From: Prochlorococcus sp. AG-424-E18
GTDB taxonomy: Bacteria; Cyanobacteriota; Cyanobacteriia; PCC-6307; Cyanobiaceae
NCBI GenBank assembly: GCA_003210155.1
Contig: QCNC01000004.1
Location: 1-64,000 of the forward strand
Direction: 5' to 3'
DNA length: 64,000 nt
The notes under the pieces were generated by a model that was not told where the DNA came from, did not search any database, and was given only the letters and a program-made list of their open reading frames with translations. Positions 11,324-28,286 of this stretch are shown in pieces. The first letter of the stretch is position 1. Every line of letters begins with the position of its first letter. A program made the position numbers and the translations under genes.

Positions 11324-12223
11324 ATGATATCCATCTCTAAATCTGAAGAACGTCTTAAAAAAGCATTTGAAATAGATTATTTTTATGATCCCTTTTTTAT
11401 TGCTGAAATTGGGATCAATCATAATGGCTCTGTCAAGCTAGCAAAAGAGCTTATAGATATGGCAGTAAAGGCTGATTGCGATGCCGTTAAATTTCAAAAA
11501 AGAGATATTAATACCGTCTATAGTAGTAAAATTTTAGATTCCCCAAGAAAAAGTCCTTGGGGAGAAACTACAAGAGAACAAAAAATTGGTTTGGAGTTCT
11601 CTAAAGATGAATACATAGAGATAGATGATTACTGTAAGAAAAAAAATATTTTATGGTCTGCATCAGCATGGGATACTAAAAGCCAAGATTTCCTAAAAGA
11701 ATTTAATCTTCCTTTTAATAAAGTTGCATCTGCTTTGGCAACAAATAAACCATTTCTTGAATACGTAGCAATGGAAAAAAAATTAACTTTTGTTTCTACT
11801 GGAATGATGCAAGAAAAGGATATTGATGAAATTATTAATATCTTTAAGGATAATAAATGCCCTTTATGTCTTTTTCATACAGTAAGTGTATACCCATCCC
11901 CAGAAAATGATTTGAATTTATTATTAATTAAAAAATATAAGGAAAAATTCAATATCCCTATTGGATATAGCGGGCATGAATCAAGTGTTTTACCTTCAAT
12001 CATTGCAGCGACAATGGGAGCATCAGCAATTGAAAGGCATATTACCTTAGATAGAGCAATGTATGGATCTGATCAATCTGCTTCTTTAGAATCACAAGGT
12101 TTAAATAATCTTGTTTCTTCTCTAAGAAAATATAAAAATCTCCTCGGTAATAATAAGAAAACTTTTTCTCTAGAGGAGAAAAATGTAGCAAATAAACTTC
12201 GATATTGGAAAAATCCTGAATAA
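11324..12223 (+). CDS. N-acetylneuraminate synthase (NeuB/SpsE)-like, apparently lacking the C-terminal SAF domain
   Basis: FFIAEIGINHNGSVKLAKELID, AVKFQKRD, VSTGMM, IGYSGHESS, ERHITLDRAMYGSDQSASLE; 299 aa. Confidence 0.88.
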   Translation: MISISKSEERLKKAFEIDYFYDPFFIAEIGINHNGSVKLAKELIDMAVKADCDAVKFQKRDINTVYSSKILDSPRKSPWGETTREQKIGLEFSKDEYIEIDDYCKKKNILWSASAWDTKSQDFLKEFNLPFNKVASALATNKPFLEYVAMEKKLTFVSTGMMQEKDIDEIINIFKDNKCPLCLFHTVSVYPSPENDLNLLLIKKYKEKFNIPIGYSGHESSVLPSIIAATMGASAIERHITLDRAMYGSDQSASLESQGLNNLVSSLRKYKNLLGNNKKTFSLEEKNVANKLRYWKNPE

Positions 12224-12534: not shown

Positions 12535-13105
12535 AAGACTTATTCAAAGAAGCAAAATTTTAGAAAAATTTTTTTTTGAGAATGAGAAAAATATTTCAGA
12601 ATTATTTGTTGATGTAGAGAATTCCATATCGAATTCTGGGAAATTAATTCTGATTGGTAATGGCGGGAGTTTTGCTATAGCCCAGCATATATCGGCAGAG
12701 TTTACTGGTAGATTTGTAAAAGAAAGAGATTCTATTCCTTCCTTTGTCTTGGGAAGTAATCCCTCATCTTTTTCTGCAATTTCAAATGATTATGGATATG
12801 AAAATAGTTTTTCGAGAGAATTTAGTTCGCTTGCTAATAAAAAAGATATTTTGATTGCAATGTCTGTATCAGGGAAAAGTAAGAATATATTAAAAACTCT
12901 TGAAGCATCAAAAGTTAAAAGTATAAAAAGTTATTTTTTAACTGGTCAATCAAAAGAAAAGATTAATGTAGAAAAAATTTTAGGAACAAATTTAATAACA
13001 GTACCGTCCTCTGAAACTGCTATCGTTCAAGAAATACACTTCACCATTCTGCATGAGTTGTGTAATTTTATAGATGAAAATTATTCATCTCTTAAAAATC
13101 TTTAA
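12518..13105 (+). CDS. SIS-domain isomerase, phosphoheptose isomerase (GmhA)-like
   Basis: ORF open from 12479, but ATG 12518 (MKYLHKRLIQRS) gives only a 17-nt overlap. ILIGNGGSFAIAQHISAEFTGRF, AMSVSGKSKNILK, PSSETAIVQEIHF. Confidence 0.83.
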   Translation: MKYLHKRLIQRSKILEKFFFENEKNISELFVDVENSISNSGKLILIGNGGSFAIAQHISAEFTGRFVKERDSIPSFVLGSNPSSFSAISNDYGYENSFSREFSSLANKKDILIAMSVSGKSKNILKTLEASKVKSIKSYFLTGQSKEKINVEKILGTNLITVPSSETAIVQEIHFTILHELCNFIDENYSSLKNL

Positions 13106-13803
13106 TTGTTCTTTCCTATAAGAAATTCTAAAAATTCTAAATCTTCTAAAGTATCAATTTCATGCGAAACAGGAGTCTCATATAATTTAATTTTTTCTCC
13201 ATGTAGAGAATTTGAAGATATTTGATCTGTTTTAATCAAATCGAGATATCCATTAGGAACGTAAACCTTTGGAAGTTTTTGTCTTGGATTATTAGTATCT
13301 TTTAGTTCAAAATTACTGACAATGGGTTCTGCATAATTATTTTTATCTTTTAAAAACCATTTAAAAGGACTTTCCGAACATTCGTGTACTGATCTTAGCG
13401 AAGATGATTCATTATCTTCTAAAAATAGATTTATTCCATTTTCCACTACTCCTAAATCCCTTATTGGAGTAGTTGGTCTTAGATGTACCCATATGTCTGG
13501 ACTTCTATCCGAAAAAAAATTATAAAGATGTTTAAATAAATCATGATCTGTTGCATTGTCGCCACTAATTTCACTTGGTCTTAAAAATGGAGTTTCAGCA
13601 CCAGCTTTTTTGCCAATATCCTGGTAATCAATAGAATCTGTATCTAAGATAACTCTAGATATGAGATTTGATTTTAAGGCTATTTCTATGGAATGCACAA
13701 GCAGAGGTTTTCCACCAAGATTTCTTATGTTCTTATTTTTTACACCCTTTGAACCTGATCGTGCTGGAATTATTGCCCATACTTCTTTCATATTTAAACC
13801 CAA
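13102..13803 (-). CDS. Acylneuraminate cytidylyltransferase (NeuA)-like
   Basis: VWAIIPARSGSKGVKNKNIRNLGGKPLL, WVHLRPTTPIR; start may be internal Met at about 13791. Confidence 0.88.
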   Translation of the reverse strand: MGLNMKEVWAIIPARSGSKGVKNKNIRNLGGKPLLVHSIEIALKSNLISRVILDTDSIDYQDIGKKAGAETPFLRPSEISGDNATDHDLFKHLYNFFSDRSPDIWVHLRPTTPIRDLGVVENGINLFLEDNESSSLRSVHECSESPFKWFLKDKNNYAEPIVSNFELKDTNNPRQKLPKVYVPNGYLDLIKTDQISSNSLHGEKIKLYETPVSHEIDTLEDLEFLEFLIGKNN

Positions 13804-20316: not shown

Positions 20317-21087
20317 ATGGTAAAAAAGCAAGAATTATTTTTAAATTCAAATGATCATTCTTTTGAGCTAGGCTTTGCAGACAATTTAATGCTTAGAAAT
20401 TATGCTAGATTAAACAATTTTTATTTTTGTTCGATGATTGGTGGAGCAGAATCAATAAGAGATTTGCAAGAGTCAAAAAATATATTTGCTGATGCTTTTG
20501 AGTTCCCAATGATAGAATCTTTGTTTGCAATTAAAAAAATTTTTGATGCTTTAGAAAAAGTTTTTATATTAGACAGTTACTCTTTAAAAAACAAATTTAT
20601 TTTCATAAATATAGATTCAACTGATGGCTTAGAACTTTTAAAGGATTTGAATGATCTAATTATCCCAAAATTCCTTACAAAAGAAAACATAATTTTTAAT
20701 TTTGATAGAAGATCTATAACAAAATCAATTGGATTAGTAAAAAGTGAAAACTTTGAAATGGAAGATTTTGAAGAACAAATCAATTCACTTATCCTAAATA
20801 AGATAAATTTTATCAAAAATAGATCTTTTAGATTTTCTGTTTCTGGCGGTATAAAAGAAAAATCTTTTATACATATGCAGGGAATAAATTTATCTCCAGA
20901 TTTTATAAAAACAGGTCTTTTTACTATCAAATCAAATAATGATAATGACATAATTTTTCAAAAAATATCTGATTTACAAGCTTTAGAATTAAAAATAATA
21001 TCTCAAATGAATAAATGCATAATTTACAAACATAATTATCTGAATATTAGAGAATCACATCTAAGAAATTATATAAAAAATAAATAA
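20317..21087 (+). CDS. HpcH/HpaI aldolase-like protein with divergent active site
   Basis: Same layout as the adjacent CDS (CSMIGGAESIRDLQ...FEFPMIESLFAIKKIF vs LKVGGPCAKRDIYEAF...LVPMVESAFAIEY), but the IES and GRSDLANSLG motifs are replaced by IDS and NFDRRSITKSIG. Confidence 0.55.
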   Translation: MVKKQELFLNSNDHSFELGFADNLMLRNYARLNNFYFCSMIGGAESIRDLQESKNIFADAFEFPMIESLFAIKKIFDALEKVFILDSYSLKNKFIFINIDSTDGLELLKDLNDLIIPKFLTKENIIFNFDRRSITKSIGLVKSENFEMEDFEEQINSLILNKINFIKNRSFRFSVSGGIKEKSFIHMQGINLSPDFIKTGLFTIKSNNDNDIIFQKISDLQALELKIISQMNKCIIYKHNYLNIRESHLRNYIKNK

Positions 21088-21088
21088 T

Positions 21089-21880
21089 ATGAATCCATTT
21101 TTAATTGAATTAGAGAAAAAAATTATTTCTCTTAAATCATCTCAAAGACTAAAAGCTATAAAAGCGGAATTTGAAGCTGAAGGGACAAGAATTGAAGAGC
21201 TTTCTATCTTATCTCATTTATGCACAACTAACTCAATACCTTTAACCCTTAAGGTGGGAGGTCCTTGCGCAAAAAGAGACATTTATGAAGCATTTCAAAT
21301 AGGAGCTAATGAAATATTAGTTCCAATGGTTGAATCGGCATTTGCAATAGAATATTGTTCGGATGCTTATATGGCTTTGATCCCTAATTTTCAATCTCTT
21401 AAAACTCGTCCATTATTATCAGTGAATATAGAGAGCAAAAAAGCAATTCAAAATATTGATAGTATTTTAGAAAGCATAAAAAATTTATCACTTCCTATAA
21501 ATAGTATCGTAATAGGGAGATCTGATCTTGCTAATTCATTAGGAGAAAAAGATGTTAATTCAGAATTAATTTTAGATTTAAGTTATATGCTTATAAAAAA
21601 ATGCAGAGAAATTAATTTAAAAGTAACTATTGGAGGTAATTTAACTAGACATAGCTATAAATTTATTAATAATTTTGATAATAATATTTATGCTTTTGAG
21701 TCAAGAAAATGTACTTTTAGCAACCTTGAACCATTATCCCAAAATAGTTTTAATGCACTAATAAATGATGGATTAGAATTTGAATTGTCTTGGTTAAAAT
21801 TCAAAAGGTCACTATATCAAGACCGATCTGAAGAGGAAAATTTTAGAATCTCAAAAATTTCAAAAAGAATCAATCAATAA
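21089..21880 (+). CDS. HpcH/HpaI aldolase / citrate lyase beta-like protein
   Basis: VGGPCAKRDIYEAFQIGANEILVPMVESAFAI, VNIESKKAI, VIGRSDLANSLG. Confidence 0.68.
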   Translation: MNPFLIELEKKIISLKSSQRLKAIKAEFEAEGTRIEELSILSHLCTTNSIPLTLKVGGPCAKRDIYEAFQIGANEILVPMVESAFAIEYCSDAYMALIPNFQSLKTRPLLSVNIESKKAIQNIDSILESIKNLSLPINSIVIGRSDLANSLGEKDVNSELILDLSYMLIKKCREINLKVTIGGNLTRHSYKFINNFDNNIYAFESRKCTFSNLEPLSQNSFNALINDGLEFELSWLKFKRSLYQDRSEEENFRISKISKRINQ

Positions 21881-21886
21881 TTTTAA

Positions 21887-22642
21887 ATGGTAAATCTAGT
21901 TACAAATTCTTTTAGTCTTGATTCTATAGAGGGAGTTATCTTTGATAAGGATGGAACCATCACAGACTCTAATATTTATTGGTCGAAAATCATAAAAATG
22001 AGAGCACAAAAAATTATAGAATATTACGGCATAAGACCAATTCACTTTAAAAATATTTGTTCTTCAATGGGTTTAGATAATAGTTCCAATAGGTTATTAG
22101 AATCAGGGCCAATAGCAATAAAAAGTAGAAAAGAAGTGATCAACAGCATAGTAGATTACTCAAAAGATATTGAAGTTATTTTTAATTATGAAGAAATAGA
22201 ATCATTATTTTTTGAAGTCCATAATGAATTTCTGCCACAAATGGATGCTTTTATTAAACCAATTTATCCATGCCTAGATTTAATAAAAAGGTTATATCAT
22301 TCAAAAGTTAAATTATCTCTTCTCACTAGCGATACAACAAAGAATGCTGAGCTAGTTTGTAAGAAATTAAAAATTACTTCCTATTTCGAACATATAGTAG
22401 GAGGAGACTTAAGTAACCACAATAAATCTTCAGGTATTCCAGCAAAGCTAATTTGTAAAAGAATGAATATAGAGAACAAAAATGTCATTTGCATAGGTGA
22501 TACTCCTATTGATCATGAAATGGCAGTTAATGCAAATTTAAAAGGCTCTATTCTTGTTGAATCGGGACAAATTCCATTTAATTCATTATTAAGTTTTTCT
22601 AAGTATTGCGTTAAAAATTTATCTGAAATCTTTATCTATTAA
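21887..22642 (+). CDS. HAD-superfamily hydrolase (phosphatase)
   Basis: VIFDKDGTITDSN motif I, LLTSDTTKNAE, CIGDTPIDHEMAVNANLKG. Confidence 0.88.
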   Translation: MVNLVTNSFSLDSIEGVIFDKDGTITDSNIYWSKIIKMRAQKIIEYYGIRPIHFKNICSSMGLDNSSNRLLESGPIAIKSRKEVINSIVDYSKDIEVIFNYEEIESLFFEVHNEFLPQMDAFIKPIYPCLDLIKRLYHSKVKLSLLTSDTTKNAELVCKKLKITSYFEHIVGGDLSNHNKSSGIPAKLICKRMNIENKNVICIGDTPIDHEMAVNANLKGSILVESGQIPFNSLLSFSKYCVKNLSEIFIY

Positions 22643-22753
22643 AAAAAATACCATATTAAAAGAATTATTGAATTAGTCTGCAAATTCGAAATTTTTAGTA
22701 TATTTATAAAAAATCAAAATAAAATAGATTAAAGTTTTAAAATTCCTATATTT

Positions 22754-23497
22754 ATGAAGAAACTAAGTAAAGGCATTGGAATATGGCAAATTATTAACTC
22801 TAGTTTGGTAACAGATATTATTGCCAGTGCAGGATTCGAAATCACAATATTTGACTTAGAACACGGTCTTCATACCCCAGAAACAATACAAAACTGCCTT
22901 TATGCTGCAAATTCATCTGGATCGCTACTTACTATTGCAAGAATTCCTACACATGAATACCAATATATCGTACAGGTTATTGATACAGGTATTGATGGAT
23001 TACTTTTCCCTCATGTAGAAACAAAAGAACAACTTGATAAAATCATTAATCTTACTTTTTTATATCCAGATGGTAATAAAAGTTTCTCTCCATTTATTTC
23101 CAGATTCAAGTTTGGGCTAGATAAGAAAAATAAAAATAATCCTTTACTTGGAATACTAATAGAATCAAAATTAGGTATGAAAAATTTAGATTTACTTTTG
23201 TCAAACCCAAAAGTAGATTTCGTTTATTTTGGCGCCTATGATTTGTCAATGGAAATTAATAAAAATGGCAGCATTTTCGATCCAGAAATAATAGACAATT
23301 TGAAAAAACTTATAAGTACTGCAAAAAGATTCGATAAAAAGATATTTGCAATTTATAGAAATGATAATGAACTTAAAATTTTATTTAATTTAGGAGTTGA
23401 CTACCCAATAGCTTCTGTAGATACATCAAATTTGGTCAACAAATTAAGAGAAGAAAATCTAAAGTATTTAGAATTAAAATCTAAGATCGATTCTTAA
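22754..23497 (+). CDS. HpcH/HpaI family aldolase (2-keto-3-deoxy-sugar acid aldolase-like)
   Basis: GFEITIFDLEHGLHTPE, ARIPTHEYQYIVQVIDTGIDGLLFPHVET, GILIESKLGMKNLD, FVYFGAYDLSMEIN. Confidence 0.85.
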   Translation: MKKLSKGIGIWQIINSSLVTDIIASAGFEITIFDLEHGLHTPETIQNCLYAANSSGSLLTIARIPTHEYQYIVQVIDTGIDGLLFPHVETKEQLDKIINLTFLYPDGNKSFSPFISRFKFGLDKKNKNNPLLGILIESKLGMKNLDLLLSNPKVDFVYFGAYDLSMEINKNGSIFDPEIIDNLKKLISTAKRFDKKIFAIYRNDNELKILFNLGVDYPIASVDTSNLVNKLREENLKYLELKSKIDS

Positions 23498-24218
23498 TAT
23501 ATTCTTTAACTATCTCTAAATCATTTACATTATCTACAGCTTTTCCTGATTTAGTTAATTCTACGCATTGAACATTAATATCTAGTTCTAAAAATCTATT
23601 TATTTCTAAATCTTCTTGTAGTTCAAAAGTGGATTTTTGTTTTTGTCTATGAAATAGTTCTAAATGTTTTTTATTAAATGCATATATACAAACGTGTTTA
23701 TAAGCATTTTTAAAGACATCAAATTTACTTCCTGGAATAGCAGCTCTACTTGAATAAAGCAATTTTTTAGAATTGGTAAAAACCATTTTAGGAATTGATA
23801 AATTCCTAAAATCTGTTTCGTTTTTTATTTTTGTTATTGCTGTATGAACATCTAAAAGGTTATTTGATACTTCTTTTATGAAAAATTTTAGTTCTTCAGC
23901 TGGAAATATTGGTTCATCTCCTTGTAAATTTATATACTGATCAGCCTCTACTATTTCTGCTACTTCTGCAACTCTATCAGTTCCAGTAAGACAATTTTCA
24001 GAAGTCATTATTACTCTTGCCCCAAAACTCTCGCATTTATATTTAATCTCATTAGAGTCTGTAGCAATTATGATTCTTTCTTTTTCTCCTAATGCTTTTA
24101 AAGCACAGTTATAAGTCCTTTCAATAATGGTTTTACCTTGTATATTTATAAGAAGCTTTTTAGGAAGTCTAGTAGAGTTGAGCCTTGCTGGAATAACTAA
24201 TACAAAATTATTTTTCAT
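23481..24218 (-). CDS. 3-deoxy-manno-octulosonate cytidylyltransferase (KdsB)-like
   Basis: LVIPARLNSTRLPKKLL, CLTGTDRVAEVAE, YINLQGDEPIF, IYAFNKKHLELF. Confidence 0.88.
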   Translation of the reverse strand: MKNNFVLVIPARLNSTRLPKKLLINIQGKTIIERTYNCALKALGEKERIIIATDSNEIKYKCESFGARVIMTSENCLTGTDRVAEVAEIVEADQYINLQGDEPIFPAEELKFFIKEVSNNLLDVHTAITKIKNETDFRNLSIPKMVFTNSKKLLYSSRAAIPGSKFDVFKNAYKHVCIYAFNKKHLELFHRQKQKSTFELQEDLEINRFLELDINVQCVELTKSGKAVDNVNDLEIVKEYIKNRS

Positions 24219-24270
24219 TTAAGAATTAAATTGATTTCTATATCAATTTTATTTACTAATTAATTTTTAA

Positions 24271-25110
24271 TCAATTAAAGAATTTATTTCTTAGATCATT
24301 AATTGCTTCTAAAAATAATTTTTTGTTAGTTAATAAATTTTCATTATATTTTTGAAGATTTTTAAAAATTCTTAAGTAGTTTAAATTGAAACTAATCCCA
24401 CCATATGGGACCTTACATTGTTCGGCCAATTTAGAAGTATATGAGTTTGTACCACCACAGAGAAGAATTGGTATTCTTTTAGTATTAGGAACTTTTGAAT
24501 TTAGCTCTTTATAAATAATATCTGCTGTAGAGATAGTCTGCAATGTCTGATTAAAATTATCCTCATTGAAATCACTTATCCCATCTACTTCTAATATAAG
24601 GTTATTTTTAAAAATTGATTTTGCATTCTTAATTAATTCAATTATGTTAGCGTTACTCAGATTCTTTCTACTTAGTCTTAGGGAAATTGTTTGACCATTA
24701 AAATTTTCATTAATTATATTTGAATGACCAATAAATAAATCATTTTCAAAAAAATCTATGTGCAACTCTATTACGTCTATATCAAAATCATTTAATACTT
24801 GAATAGAATTTTTAAAATCTTGATTTCTTAATTTTAAAAAACTTGAGGTTTCAAAGCTTACAAATACTAAAGGAAAATTTTGAGATATATTTAATTCATC
24901 TTTCAATTTCTTATGTGAATTATTGATTGCTTCTTTAACTTTTAGAAGCAGTTCAAGATCAAATGTAATATCAATTGCATCAAAATTTCCTAAAGTAGCT
25001 AAGCAACTTGCCAAATAAATTTGATTTTTACTTTTATTGAACTCAAAATCTAGTTTATAGAAATTTGAATCCAAAAGTTTTTTCTTGTGGTAAGCATTTA
25101 AGCATTTCAT
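24271..25110 (-). CDS. LdpA-like protein lacking the ferredoxin (4Fe-4S) insertion; divergent paralogue of the next CDS
   Basis: Collinear with 25134..26165: LSRKNLSNANIIELIKNA...LQTISTADIIYKEL...RIPILLCGGTNSYTSKLAEQCKVPYGGI vs LDRKHLSNDMLIDRIESA...LQAVSIADFINKNL...KLPILISGGTNSFTGQLARQCEVEFNGI; no CxxCxxC motifs. Confidence 0.6.
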   Translation of the reverse strand: MKCLNAYHKKKLLDSNFYKLDFEFNKSKNQIYLASCLATLGNFDAIDITFDLELLLKVKEAINNSHKKLKDELNISQNFPLVFVSFETSSFLKLRNQDFKNSIQVLNDFDIDVIELHIDFFENDLFIGHSNIINENFNGQTISLRLSRKNLSNANIIELIKNAKSIFKNNLILEVDGISDFNEDNFNQTLQTISTADIIYKELNSKVPNTKRIPILLCGGTNSYTSKLAEQCKVPYGGISFNLNYLRIFKNLQKYNENLLTNKKLFLEAINDLRNKFFN

Positions 25111-25133
25111 TTTAAAAATAAAAAATTAAATTA

Positions 25134-26165
25134 TTAACCTAATAAATTCATGGATATTAATTTTTTTGCCATACTTATTGCTTTTAATAAATTTTCATTT
25201 GTCATTTCTAATAAATTCGTTTTGTAAGGAGAAATAACTTTTCTAGCATGTGTACCAATTGTTATTCCATTGAATTCAACCTCGCATTGTCTTGCTAATT
25301 GACCGGTAAAGGAATTTGTTCCTCCTGAAATAAGAATTGGTAATTTTTTAAACTTTATTTCTTGTTTTTTTAAATTTTTATTTATAAAATCTGCTATTGA
25401 AACAGCTTGTAGAGTTGTATTAAAATCATCCGTACCTCCACTCATAGGTATACCATCTGCTTGAATAATTAATCTATCATCAGCTATGTCGAAAGCAGAT
25501 TCTATTCTATCAATTAACATATCATTACTTAAGTGCTTTCTATCTAGACACATCGAAATCATCCCATTTGGAACCGATTCCGATACTACCTTCCATTCTC
25601 TCATCGTTGAATCATTATCTGGAACACCTGCATGCAGTTCAATACTTTCAGCTCCAGCCTCTACACATTCAGGCAATATATTTAATAATTCTTTAGCATT
25701 GTGACTATATGTTATCGCATTTGCCGCCGGGGGGCATACAGCTTCACAATTACCACAACCTATGCATAAATCTTTGATTATAATCAGATTTTCGGGTATA
25801 GCCTTGGTTGGGCAAGTAGGTATACATAAATTGCAGGAAACACAATCATTAGTTATAAATGCTTTCCTAACATGATGATCTCCAGGCATCCCTACACTTA
25901 CTGTTACGAAGGGAATAAAGGGTATTTCAATCTTAAATTCTTTTGACTTTACTAATGCTGCATTTATTCCTTTTTTAGCAGCTTTTACTATGGTTGGACT
26001 AGCTGAGACATCAAAACCAGCGCAGCCTGCCATGGTATAAACATATGCTAAGTATTCAACTTCATCAGCATCTTCATTACCCGCACCACAAACTAATTTA
26101 AAATATTTTGATGATTGCAAAAGATCCCTATAAAGACCAAACCTAGAACTAGTTTTCATTTCCAT
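25134..26165 (-). CDS. LdpA-like protein with 2x[4Fe-4S] ferredoxin domain
   Basis: FKLVCGAGNEDADEVEYLAYVYTMAGCAGFDVSASPTIVKAA; CVSCNLCIPTCP and CIGCGNCEAVCP motifs (encoded at about 25734-25844). Confidence 0.7.
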   Translation of the reverse strand: MEMKTSSRFGLYRDLLQSSKYFKLVCGAGNEDADEVEYLAYVYTMAGCAGFDVSASPTIVKAAKKGINAALVKSKEFKIEIPFIPFVTVSVGMPGDHHVRKAFITNDCVSCNLCIPTCPTKAIPENLIIIKDLCIGCGNCEAVCPPAANAITYSHNAKELLNILPECVEAGAESIELHAGVPDNDSTMREWKVVSESVPNGMISMCLDRKHLSNDMLIDRIESAFDIADDRLIIQADGIPMSGGTDDFNTTLQAVSIADFINKNLKKQEIKFKKLPILISGGTNSFTGQLARQCEVEFNGITIGTHARKVISPYKTNLLEMTNENLLKAISMAKKLISMNLLG

Positions 26166-26624: not shown

Positions 26625-27449
26625 TTAAGAATGGAAGACATCAAAATTCCCTTGACAATTGGGAGCGGGATTTCTAAATATTAATGGTCTGCAAATTGCT
26701 AGTTTTGATTCGAAACTAATACTCCCAGTATAATTAGTTAAACTAAAAAATTTTGTACCAAATGTAGGGATATTTAAATTAATAATTTTATCTGATTCGT
26801 TTAAATGTATTTTAATAATAAGGTATTTATTAGTTGGATTATTAAAAACTAAATCATAATTTTCTTGTTCCTCGAACTTATAGATAGGAGTATAAATATG
26901 TTTTCTAGAATTATATGTTGCTCTTTTTAAAAAATTTTTTGATATTCCACCAAAATTACCATGAACAACAGCACCACTATATTTATTTTCTTGAGGATAA
27001 TAGATTGTATAACCTCTGTTTTGCTCACAAATTTCGTTAATTTTTTTTAAACCATAATTATCAAATATTTCATAAAGAGATGTTTCTGAATCTACATAAT
27101 GAATGAATGAAAAATATTTACCTTTTGGACTTTCATGAGGAGAATCAAGTAATATTTTTTCAAAAAAATTATTTGTTTGGTATTTCTGACTGTTTATCAA
27201 TTCACCTTCCTCATTGAAAAAAATAAAATTATGAGTAACCTCAATTTTTTTCCCAGTAATTAAACTCCTCAGATTTTCAGCAACAAATTCAATCCGGTAA
27301 CAATTATTACTCCAAACAAAAAAATCAGAAAGGTTAGTTTCGAAATTGATATCATCTCTCAATGAGTAAACTTTATGATTCCAGTTTATTAAGTATGATA
27401 GATAATTAATAAATTTCTTAGGAAAATATTTTTTTAAGAATTTTTTCAT
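26625..27449 (-). CDS. Hypothetical protein (274 aa)
   Basis: Long ORF directly after the TAA of 27450..28286 (TAA|ATG). No family recognised; C-terminus CRPLIFRNPAPNCQGNFDVFHS. Confidence 0.6.
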   Translation of the reverse strand: MKKFLKKYFPKKFINYLSYLINWNHKVYSLRDDINFETNLSDFFVWSNNCYRIEFVAENLRSLITGKKIEVTHNFIFFNEEGELINSQKYQTNNFFEKILLDSPHESPKGKYFSFIHYVDSETSLYEIFDNYGLKKINEICEQNRGYTIYYPQENKYSGAVVHGNFGGISKNFLKRATYNSRKHIYTPIYKFEEQENYDLVFNNPTNKYLIIKIHLNESDKIINLNIPTFGTKFFSLTNYTGSISFESKLAICRPLIFRNPAPNCQGNFDVFHS

Positions 27450-28286
27450 TTATAACCAAGTTTTTTTTAGTAACCTAACCCCATCCATTTTGTTTAAACC
27501 ATAAAATAATTCTGTAGGAGGGTGAGTATGTTCTGCTGATAACTGATTAGTCTTTAAATTTAATGTGAGATTTATTGGAATGAATGAAGAATCTTTTGAA
27601 GTATAGAAATCAACTGAATTTATTTTTTCTCTATTATTTTCTTCTTGTATTCGATGAATTGTAAATGAATTTCTTTTAGCAATAATCTCTTTTTTTAAAG
27701 ACTTATTACATGGATTAAAAACATTAATTTTAACTTCTCCTTGTAAATCTGAACTTACATTGATATTCATAAAAATTATAAAATTCACTACTTCTTTACT
27801 ATTATAAGTTTGTTTTAAAGCATCAAAGCTTAAGAATGAACTTTTTTCTAAAGATGCCATTTCAAAAGGATATTCACCCTGATAAGAAGTAATTGATTTT
27901 TTAAAATAAAAATTCAGAGAACATCTCTCTGCTACTGGAGATTTATCTATTCTTAATGAATCTGGCTTAGGCAGTTTCTTTGGTGTTTTAGGGAAATTAT
28001 TATTTTTTTGAGGAACTAGTACAAGCATCTGATTAGGGTATACCTCAAAATCTTTTCTTTCAACTTGAGCATATTCATAAGGATAAGTCTTAAAAATCTT
28101 GATAAGTGACCAGTTGCATTTTTCTAAAGCATAAAGTCCAAGATAAATTATTTTGTTATATGACTTTCCAATAATCGTATCTTTTAATCGATTATTTGGA
28201 ATATTCAGGAAAGTAGTAGATCCGTAAATTTCAAGAGATAATTCCCCTATATTAATTGTTGGAGGTACCGGAAAAAAAGAACTCAC
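27450..28286 (-). CDS. Hypothetical protein (278 aa)
   Basis: Long ORF abutting the downstream CDS; no family recognised; C-terminal HTHPPTELFYGLNK. Confidence 0.6.
   Translation of the reverse strand: MSSFFPVPPTINIGELSLEIYGSTTFLNIPNNRLKDTIIGKSYNKIIYLGLYALEKCNWSLIKIFKTYPYEYAQVERKDFEVYPNQMLVLVPQKNNNFPKTPKKLPKPDSLRIDKSPVAERCSLNFYFKKSITSYQGEYPFEMASLEKSSFLSFDALKQTYNSKEVVNFIIFMNINVSSDLQGEVKINVFNPCNKSLKKEIIAKRNSFTIHRIQEENNREKINSVDFYTSKDSSFIPINLTLNLKTNQLSAEHTHPPTELFYGLNKMDGVRLLKKTWL

Follow-up and report, generated by a model that had tools for sequence, protein, structure and literature searches.

Ulosonates activated with cytidine monophosphate (CMP) are known to come from synthases that depend on phosphoenolpyruvate (PEP). 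The closest described systems are the pathway of 3-deoxy-D-manno-oct-2-ulosonic acid (Kdo), which comprises KdsD, KdsA, KdsC and KdsB together with WaaA, and the NeuB/NeuA and PseI/PseF pathways of nonulosonic acids. The class II pyruvate aldolases HpaI, GarL and RhmA are catabolic and have no link to CMP activation, and the HpaI reactions are reversible. Here, a unit of seven genes is described (positions 20317-26165) that lies in a 64,000-nucleotide stretch of Prochlorococcus sp. AG-424-E18 (contig QCNC01000004.1, positions 1 to 64,000; the window) and encodes three aldolase-like proteins (A1, A2 and A3), a HAD-superfamily phosphatase, a KdsB-like cytidylyltransferase and two relatives of the cyanobacterial clock protein LdpA. 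As judged from sequence, it is somewhat more likely than not that these genes work together as a cassette for a surface sugar and yield, without a PEP-dependent synthase, a CMP-activated 2-keto-3-deoxy sugar acid that is Kdo-like but not Kdo.

With the Kdo pathway, the cassette has in common the KdsB-family cytidylyltransferase and a phosphatase, but the latter is of the HAD_2 type and not KdsC, pyruvate-type aldolases and an Fe-S protein are present, and KdsA, KdsC, KdsD and WaaA were not detected. With the nonulosonic acid pathways it would share the end product, a CMP-activated 2-keto-3-deoxy acid, but it has aldolases instead of the PEP-dependent NeuB. A3 keeps the fold and the catalytic residues of HpaI, GarL and RhmA, whereas A2 and A1 lack parts of that active site. 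Like LdpA, the LdpA-like protein carries its ferredoxin motifs within a GGTN TIM barrel and shares conserved positions with it, but it scores far under the LdpA cut-off and sits in sugar cassettes and phages. Activation by KdsB is already known, and an aldolase entry with an LdpA-family enzyme would be a new kind of CMP-ulosonate entry if shown by experiment; in the open-licence literature searched, no description of a surface-sugar route with an aldolase and a cytidylyltransferase was found. If true, such an entry would account for the orphan KdsB genes of organisms that have no kdsA, and it predicts that Prochlorococcus and phage particles bear acidic sugars.

Proteins of the cassette

A plus-strand run A1-A2-HAD-A3 converges with a minus-strand run LdpA-LdpA2-KdsB (Table 1), with spacings along the seven genes of 1, 6, 111, -17, 52 and 23 bp; the LdpA-family pair thus lies on the same strand as kdsB, 52 bp apart. 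The initial annotation had covered the five genes in 20317-24218, whose open frames are indeed intact and tightly packed and whose families, except for that of A1, were confirmed by Pfam, but it had ended the unit there and thereby overlooked the two LdpA-family genes. It rightly noted that no PEP-dependent synthase is among the five, NeuB being encoded 8 kb away in the same island. Its count of three aldolase-like TIM barrels holds for the fold, in the case of A1 by profile and model, but not for the active site, as the metal ligands of A1 are lost.

A2 and A3 exceed the gathering score of PF03328 (HpcH_HpaI), which is 25. In the alignment to GarL, HpaI and relatives, A3 keeps E36, H37, R63, E137 and D163, and by family and catalytic residues it is an HpaI-type class II pyruvate aldolase; in AbHpaI, the metal is held by Glu151 and Asp177 (PMC8560999). 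E115 and D146 of A2 align with the HpaI metal ligands, but the HpaI histidine is replaced by phenylalanine and an equivalent of the arginine was not found in the alignment. The His-Glu loop of A2 reads K-A-E-F-E-x-E-G, and the subfamily has the motifs K-x-x-F-E-x-E-G and E-[ST]-R. A1 is joined to A2 by profile comparison (hhalign, 97.8%, E 1e-12), and the top PDB match of its AlphaFold2 model (predicted local distance difference test, pLDDT, 91.9) is HpaI (7eth, E 1e-6). While the fold is retained in A1, its Glu and Asp metal-ligand positions are both variable in the alignments, and A1 is therefore probably a non-catalytic partner; its gene stands immediately upstream of that of A2 in all eight genomes that have the pair.

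The KdsB-like protein matches PF02348 with 131.7 bits and the KdsB subfamily model NF003952 with 216 (cut-off 193), and the active-site motif QGDEP and the terminal VD are kept, but the Kdo equivalog models NF003948 and TIGR00466 are not reached. It is the sole KdsB in the window's genome (G000; 1.45 Mb, 31 contigs, 87.5% complete) and in the complete genome G078. Profile searches of the genomes, on which the following absences rest, detected no KdsA (TIGR01362) in either of these or in any of the eight A1-A2 genomes. For KdsC (TIGR01670), 19 bits were reached in G000 and nothing was found in G078, the same model being positive in the KdsA carriers G241 and G115; KdsD (TIGR00393) has no match in G000 and a partial one far under the cut-off in G078, and WaaA (PF04413) is absent from nine of nine picocyanobacteria tested, with a positive E. 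coli control. Among 300 sampled genomes of the family, 133 have kdsA. Lipopolysaccharides of cyanobacteria, those of marine Synechococcus among them, are often reported to be free of Kdo and heptose (PMC4515613). In the KdsB tree, the KdsBs of the module, of HMGL-linked clusters and of phages form one clade (support 97/98, and 95/97 once E. coli and kdsA-positive picocyanobacteria are added), in which the HMGL-linked row L088 sits on a long branch and is placed with uncertainty; the KdsBs of nine kdsA-positive picocyanobacteria form a separate clade. That the gene is merely the housekeeping kdsB, the reading which the initial annotation had named as its own refutation, was rejected on this tree together with the lack of detected kdsA, kdsC, kdsD and waaA in G000 and G078. 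An ordinary KdsA/KdsB pair is carried by at least one named cyanophage, S-SCSM2R (PQ898602.1, 211927-212604), according to its annotation.

The LdpA-like protein has two ferredoxin-type cysteine motifs and an LdpA_C domain, and reaches 127 bits with the NCBIfam LdpA equivalog NF045992, the cut-off of which is 450. Its AlphaFold2 model (pLDDT 86.9) finds class II aldolases as top PDB matches, with a TM score of about 0.5. By these sequence features it is a member of the LdpA superfamily, a paralog, and not LdpA proper. A published survey reported LdpA from cyanobacteria only (PMC5520375), and how LdpA acts on the clock at the molecular level is not settled (PMC13421787). LdpA gains relatives whose metabolic role can be tested, and the family is found outside cyanobacterial genomes, in phages. 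A full-strength LdpA_C match (154 bits) is present in G017, but G000 and the complete G078 have the cassette paralog only, so true LdpA seems not to be universal in these genomes.

Table 1. Genes of the cassette and associated sugar genes of the same island
Feature	Position	Strand	Family and remarks
A1	20317-21087	+	TIM-barrel paralog of A2, metal-ligand residues lost; no Pfam match
A2	21089-21880	+	HpcH/HpaI subfamily; PF03328 37.2 bits
HAD-superfamily phosphatase (HAD_2)	21887-22642	+	PF13419 5.6e-21
A3	22754-23497	+	HpaI/GarL-type class II pyruvate aldolase; PF03328 75.7 bits
KdsB-like CMP-ulosonate cytidylyltransferase	23481-24218	-	CTP_transf_3 4.3e-38; aldolase-linked clade
LdpA2	24271-25110	-	LdpA-like paralog without Fe-S region (alignment)
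LdpA-like TIM-barrel protein	25134-26165	-	LdpA_C 4.2e-10; two CxxCxxCxxxC ferredoxin motifs
NeuB	11324-12223		8 kb from the cassette
Second CMP-transferase	13102-13803		Closer to PseF; nearer NeuB than KdsB is

Recurrence in picocyanobacteria and phages

The initial annotation had named conservation of the neighbourhood as a check, and the full gene content is kept in four Prochlorococcus genomes, which are that of the window, G078 (L034), AG-363-M17 (L035=L113) and AG-686-O05 (L109), and in part in phages. As gene orders and orientations differ among the four, the shared content points to selection for a joint function, and the cassette is not a chance assembly. LdpA-like genes occur in nine of the 300 genomes, six times beside A1-A2 and three times beside an HMGL-like aldolase, HAD and KdsB, and none was found outside such cassettes in this sample; LdpA2 adjoins the LdpA-like gene in the window and in L035, L037, L093, L108 and L109. 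A HAD gene fills the equivalent slot in L034, L035, L108, L109 and the viral L232.

The pairing of aldolase and cytidylyltransferase is more widespread than the cassette. Ten of the 14 HpaI-type genes of the 300 genomes lie at most 2 kb from a cytidylyltransferase, the rough chance rate being 1% per gene and homologous loci not being independent, and the pairing recurs in several KdsB clades as well as with an unrelated superfamily of HMGL-like aldolases, which occupy the place of A2 in related clusters. Among the 300 genomes, an HpaI- or HMGL-type aldolase adjoins KdsB in ten of the 14 that have KdsB (at least 60 bits) with KdsA under the cut-off. In L088-L093, KdsB goes together with an HMGL-like aldolase of about 540 amino acids, HAD and often an LdpA-like protein; this aldolase is extended at its C-terminus by a domain of about 200 amino acids that has no Pfam match. 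Another KdsB cassette, consisting of a short-chain dehydrogenase/reductase (SDR), KdsB and a 3-dehydroquinate (DHQ)-synthase-like gene, is found in L094, L099, L101 and L107, and G078 has in the same island a second aldolase cassette of HAD, a GAPDH-like gene, a NeuA-like transferase and HpaI (L236:9681-12872). A candidate transferase of about 537 amino acids stands beside KdsB cassettes in L034:2838-4451, L089:3294-4898, L092:3587-5203 and L093:8097-9707.

The LdpA-like protein is also encoded on 25 IMG/VR contigs (L209-L233) with 41-49% identity; their viral status is the IMG/VR assignment, checked here only for L209, L214 and L219. On most of them, the LdpA-like gene directly follows a gene of the A2 family and is itself directly followed by a small gene for a HAD-like protein of about 126 amino acids. 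L214 and L219 have a tight run of five genes, A2-LdpA-HAD-HpaI-KdsB, and in L209, L211, L212, L215, L218 and L223 A2-LdpA-HAD is followed by a NeuA-like transferase. At many of the other viral loci, the LdpA-like gene has a thiamine diphosphate (ThDP) enzyme and RfbG/H as neighbours, whether or not HpaI is present, and in L232 the place of A2 is taken by HAD and an HMGL-like aldolase. L214 also carries a gene of the GT29 sialyltransferase family, L219 encodes PhoH, and Flavobacterium phage immuto and Microcystis phage Mel-JY01 have genes similar to some on L209 and L214. Searches of named phages and plasmids gave no match to A2 or to the LdpA-like proteins of the phages and the window.

Relatives of A2 are found in at least 206 genome loci of many phyla and in 21 viral contigs, mostly with a ThDP enzyme, RfbF/G/H and either HAD or an SDR with a DHQ-synthase-like gene, as surveyed across bacteria with an initial profile set that included wrong overlapping reading frames for KdsB, A1 and A2. 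This widespread neighbourhood looks like a branched-sugar cassette.

Proposed route and alternative explanations

From the families, residues and gene linkage observed, a route can be proposed, in which the substrate sugar, the order of the steps, the role of the LdpA-like protein and the redox step are conjectural. A3, as a metal-dependent HpaI-type enzyme, would join pyruvate and an aldehyde to a 2-keto-3-deoxy acid, HAD would remove a phosphate before or after this step, KdsB would couple the free acid to CMP, and some glycosyltransferase would put the activated acid on the O-antigen. A1/A2, as a pair of a catalytic and a degenerate protein, and the LdpA-like Fe-S TIM barrel would be a second sub-module, the most likely task of which is to provide the aldehyde or keto-acid precursor, or to modify it, through another lyase step and a redox step. 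Since there are loci with A1-A2-LdpA that have no KdsB, two sub-modules may have been joined in the cassette. The aldolase route to a CMP-ulosonate that the initial annotation had put forward is supported in part: aldolase and cytidylyltransferase are recurrently linked, and one of the aldolases would supply the substrate of KdsB.

Several observations weigh against a single route of this kind. In G026 and G006, A1-A2-LdpA has no neighbouring KdsB, HAD or A3, and in G088 it stands alone with KdsB about 9 kb away, a KdsB-free arrangement that the initial annotation did not consider; in AG-347-E23 (L108, a short contig, at the contig end), A3 is lacking and the cytidylyltransferase beside A1-A2-HAD-LdpA is a different one. 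HpaI is missing from HMGL-type clusters and from several phage clusters that nevertheless have a CMP-transferase, and the A3 step may therefore not be common to all. In the window, no glycosyltransferase candidate was identified, and a search found no homolog of the 537-amino-acid protein that adjoins KdsB in relatives. The chief reservation is that A1-A2-LdpA exists without KdsB and that relatives of A2 sit with ThDP enzymes; A2 and LdpA may therefore make another intermediate of more general use, which is put to different ends from island to island. Tentatively, one can imagine a modular and partly phage-borne CMP-sugar-acid route, in which an HpcH- or HMGL-type aldolase and an LdpA-superfamily Fe-S enzyme replace the PEP-dependent synthase and the intermediate goes either to CMP activation or to a branched-sugar ThDP enzyme; if that is true, LdpA itself derives from, or is, a sugar-acid enzyme.

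The same observations bear on the possibility that the island simply holds two sub-modules that have nothing to do with each other, with HpaI-KdsB making the CMP-ulosonate and A1-A2-LdpA(-HAD) an unrelated product. This is somewhat unlikely: A1-A2-LdpA lacks a nearby KdsB or A3 in L036 and L038, A2-family genes elsewhere keep mainly to ThDP enzymes, RfbF/G/H, HAD or SDR and DHQ-synthase-like genes, and HpaI-KdsB pairs occur without A2 in L096, L104, L105 and L237, but the parts co-occur in differing orders in four Prochlorococcus genomes and as a tight five-gene run in two phage contigs, and in the window KdsB belongs to one operon-like run with LdpA and LdpA2. An ordinary Kdo supply with an overlooked kdsA is very improbable. 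The KdsB subfamily model is passed, the window's genome is incomplete and kdsA is common in picocyanobacteria, but kdsA is absent also from the complete G078 and from all eight A1-A2 genomes, the Kdo equivalog models are not reached, the KdsB clade is apart from the KdsBs of kdsA-positive relatives, and WaaA was found in none of the nine picocyanobacteria tested.

It is just as hard to believe that KdsB activates the product of NeuB while the aldolases act on something else, as the PseF-like CMP-transferase lies nearer to NeuB, and relatives of the module have KdsB and aldolases but no NeuB in the neighbourhoods retrieved; what speaks for it is that NeuB and KdsB are encoded in the same island. 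KdsB and the PseF-like protein are the only CMP-transferases over the family cut-off in G000, which has one synthase of the 3-deoxy-D-arabino-heptulosonate 7-phosphate (DAHP) type, and their different families agree with the earlier idea that they could serve different sugars. The reversibility of the HpaI reactions and the catabolic function of HpaI and GarL would also fit aldolases that run in the direction of cleavage and recycle a keto-deoxy acid, but this has very little probability, since the genes lie in a surface-polysaccharide island, the phage-borne run ends in a cytidylyltransferase, and the cassette has no sugar-acid transporter or dehydratase.

Surroundings of the cassette

A scan for promoters and terminators gave sites no more numerous than in shuffled sequence, and PHROGs holds no family that matches the module proteins. 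At 26625-28286 of the window, two neighbouring uncharacterised proteins are encoded, the homologs of which (1e-38 and 1e-36) are found near the KdsB cassette in L099.

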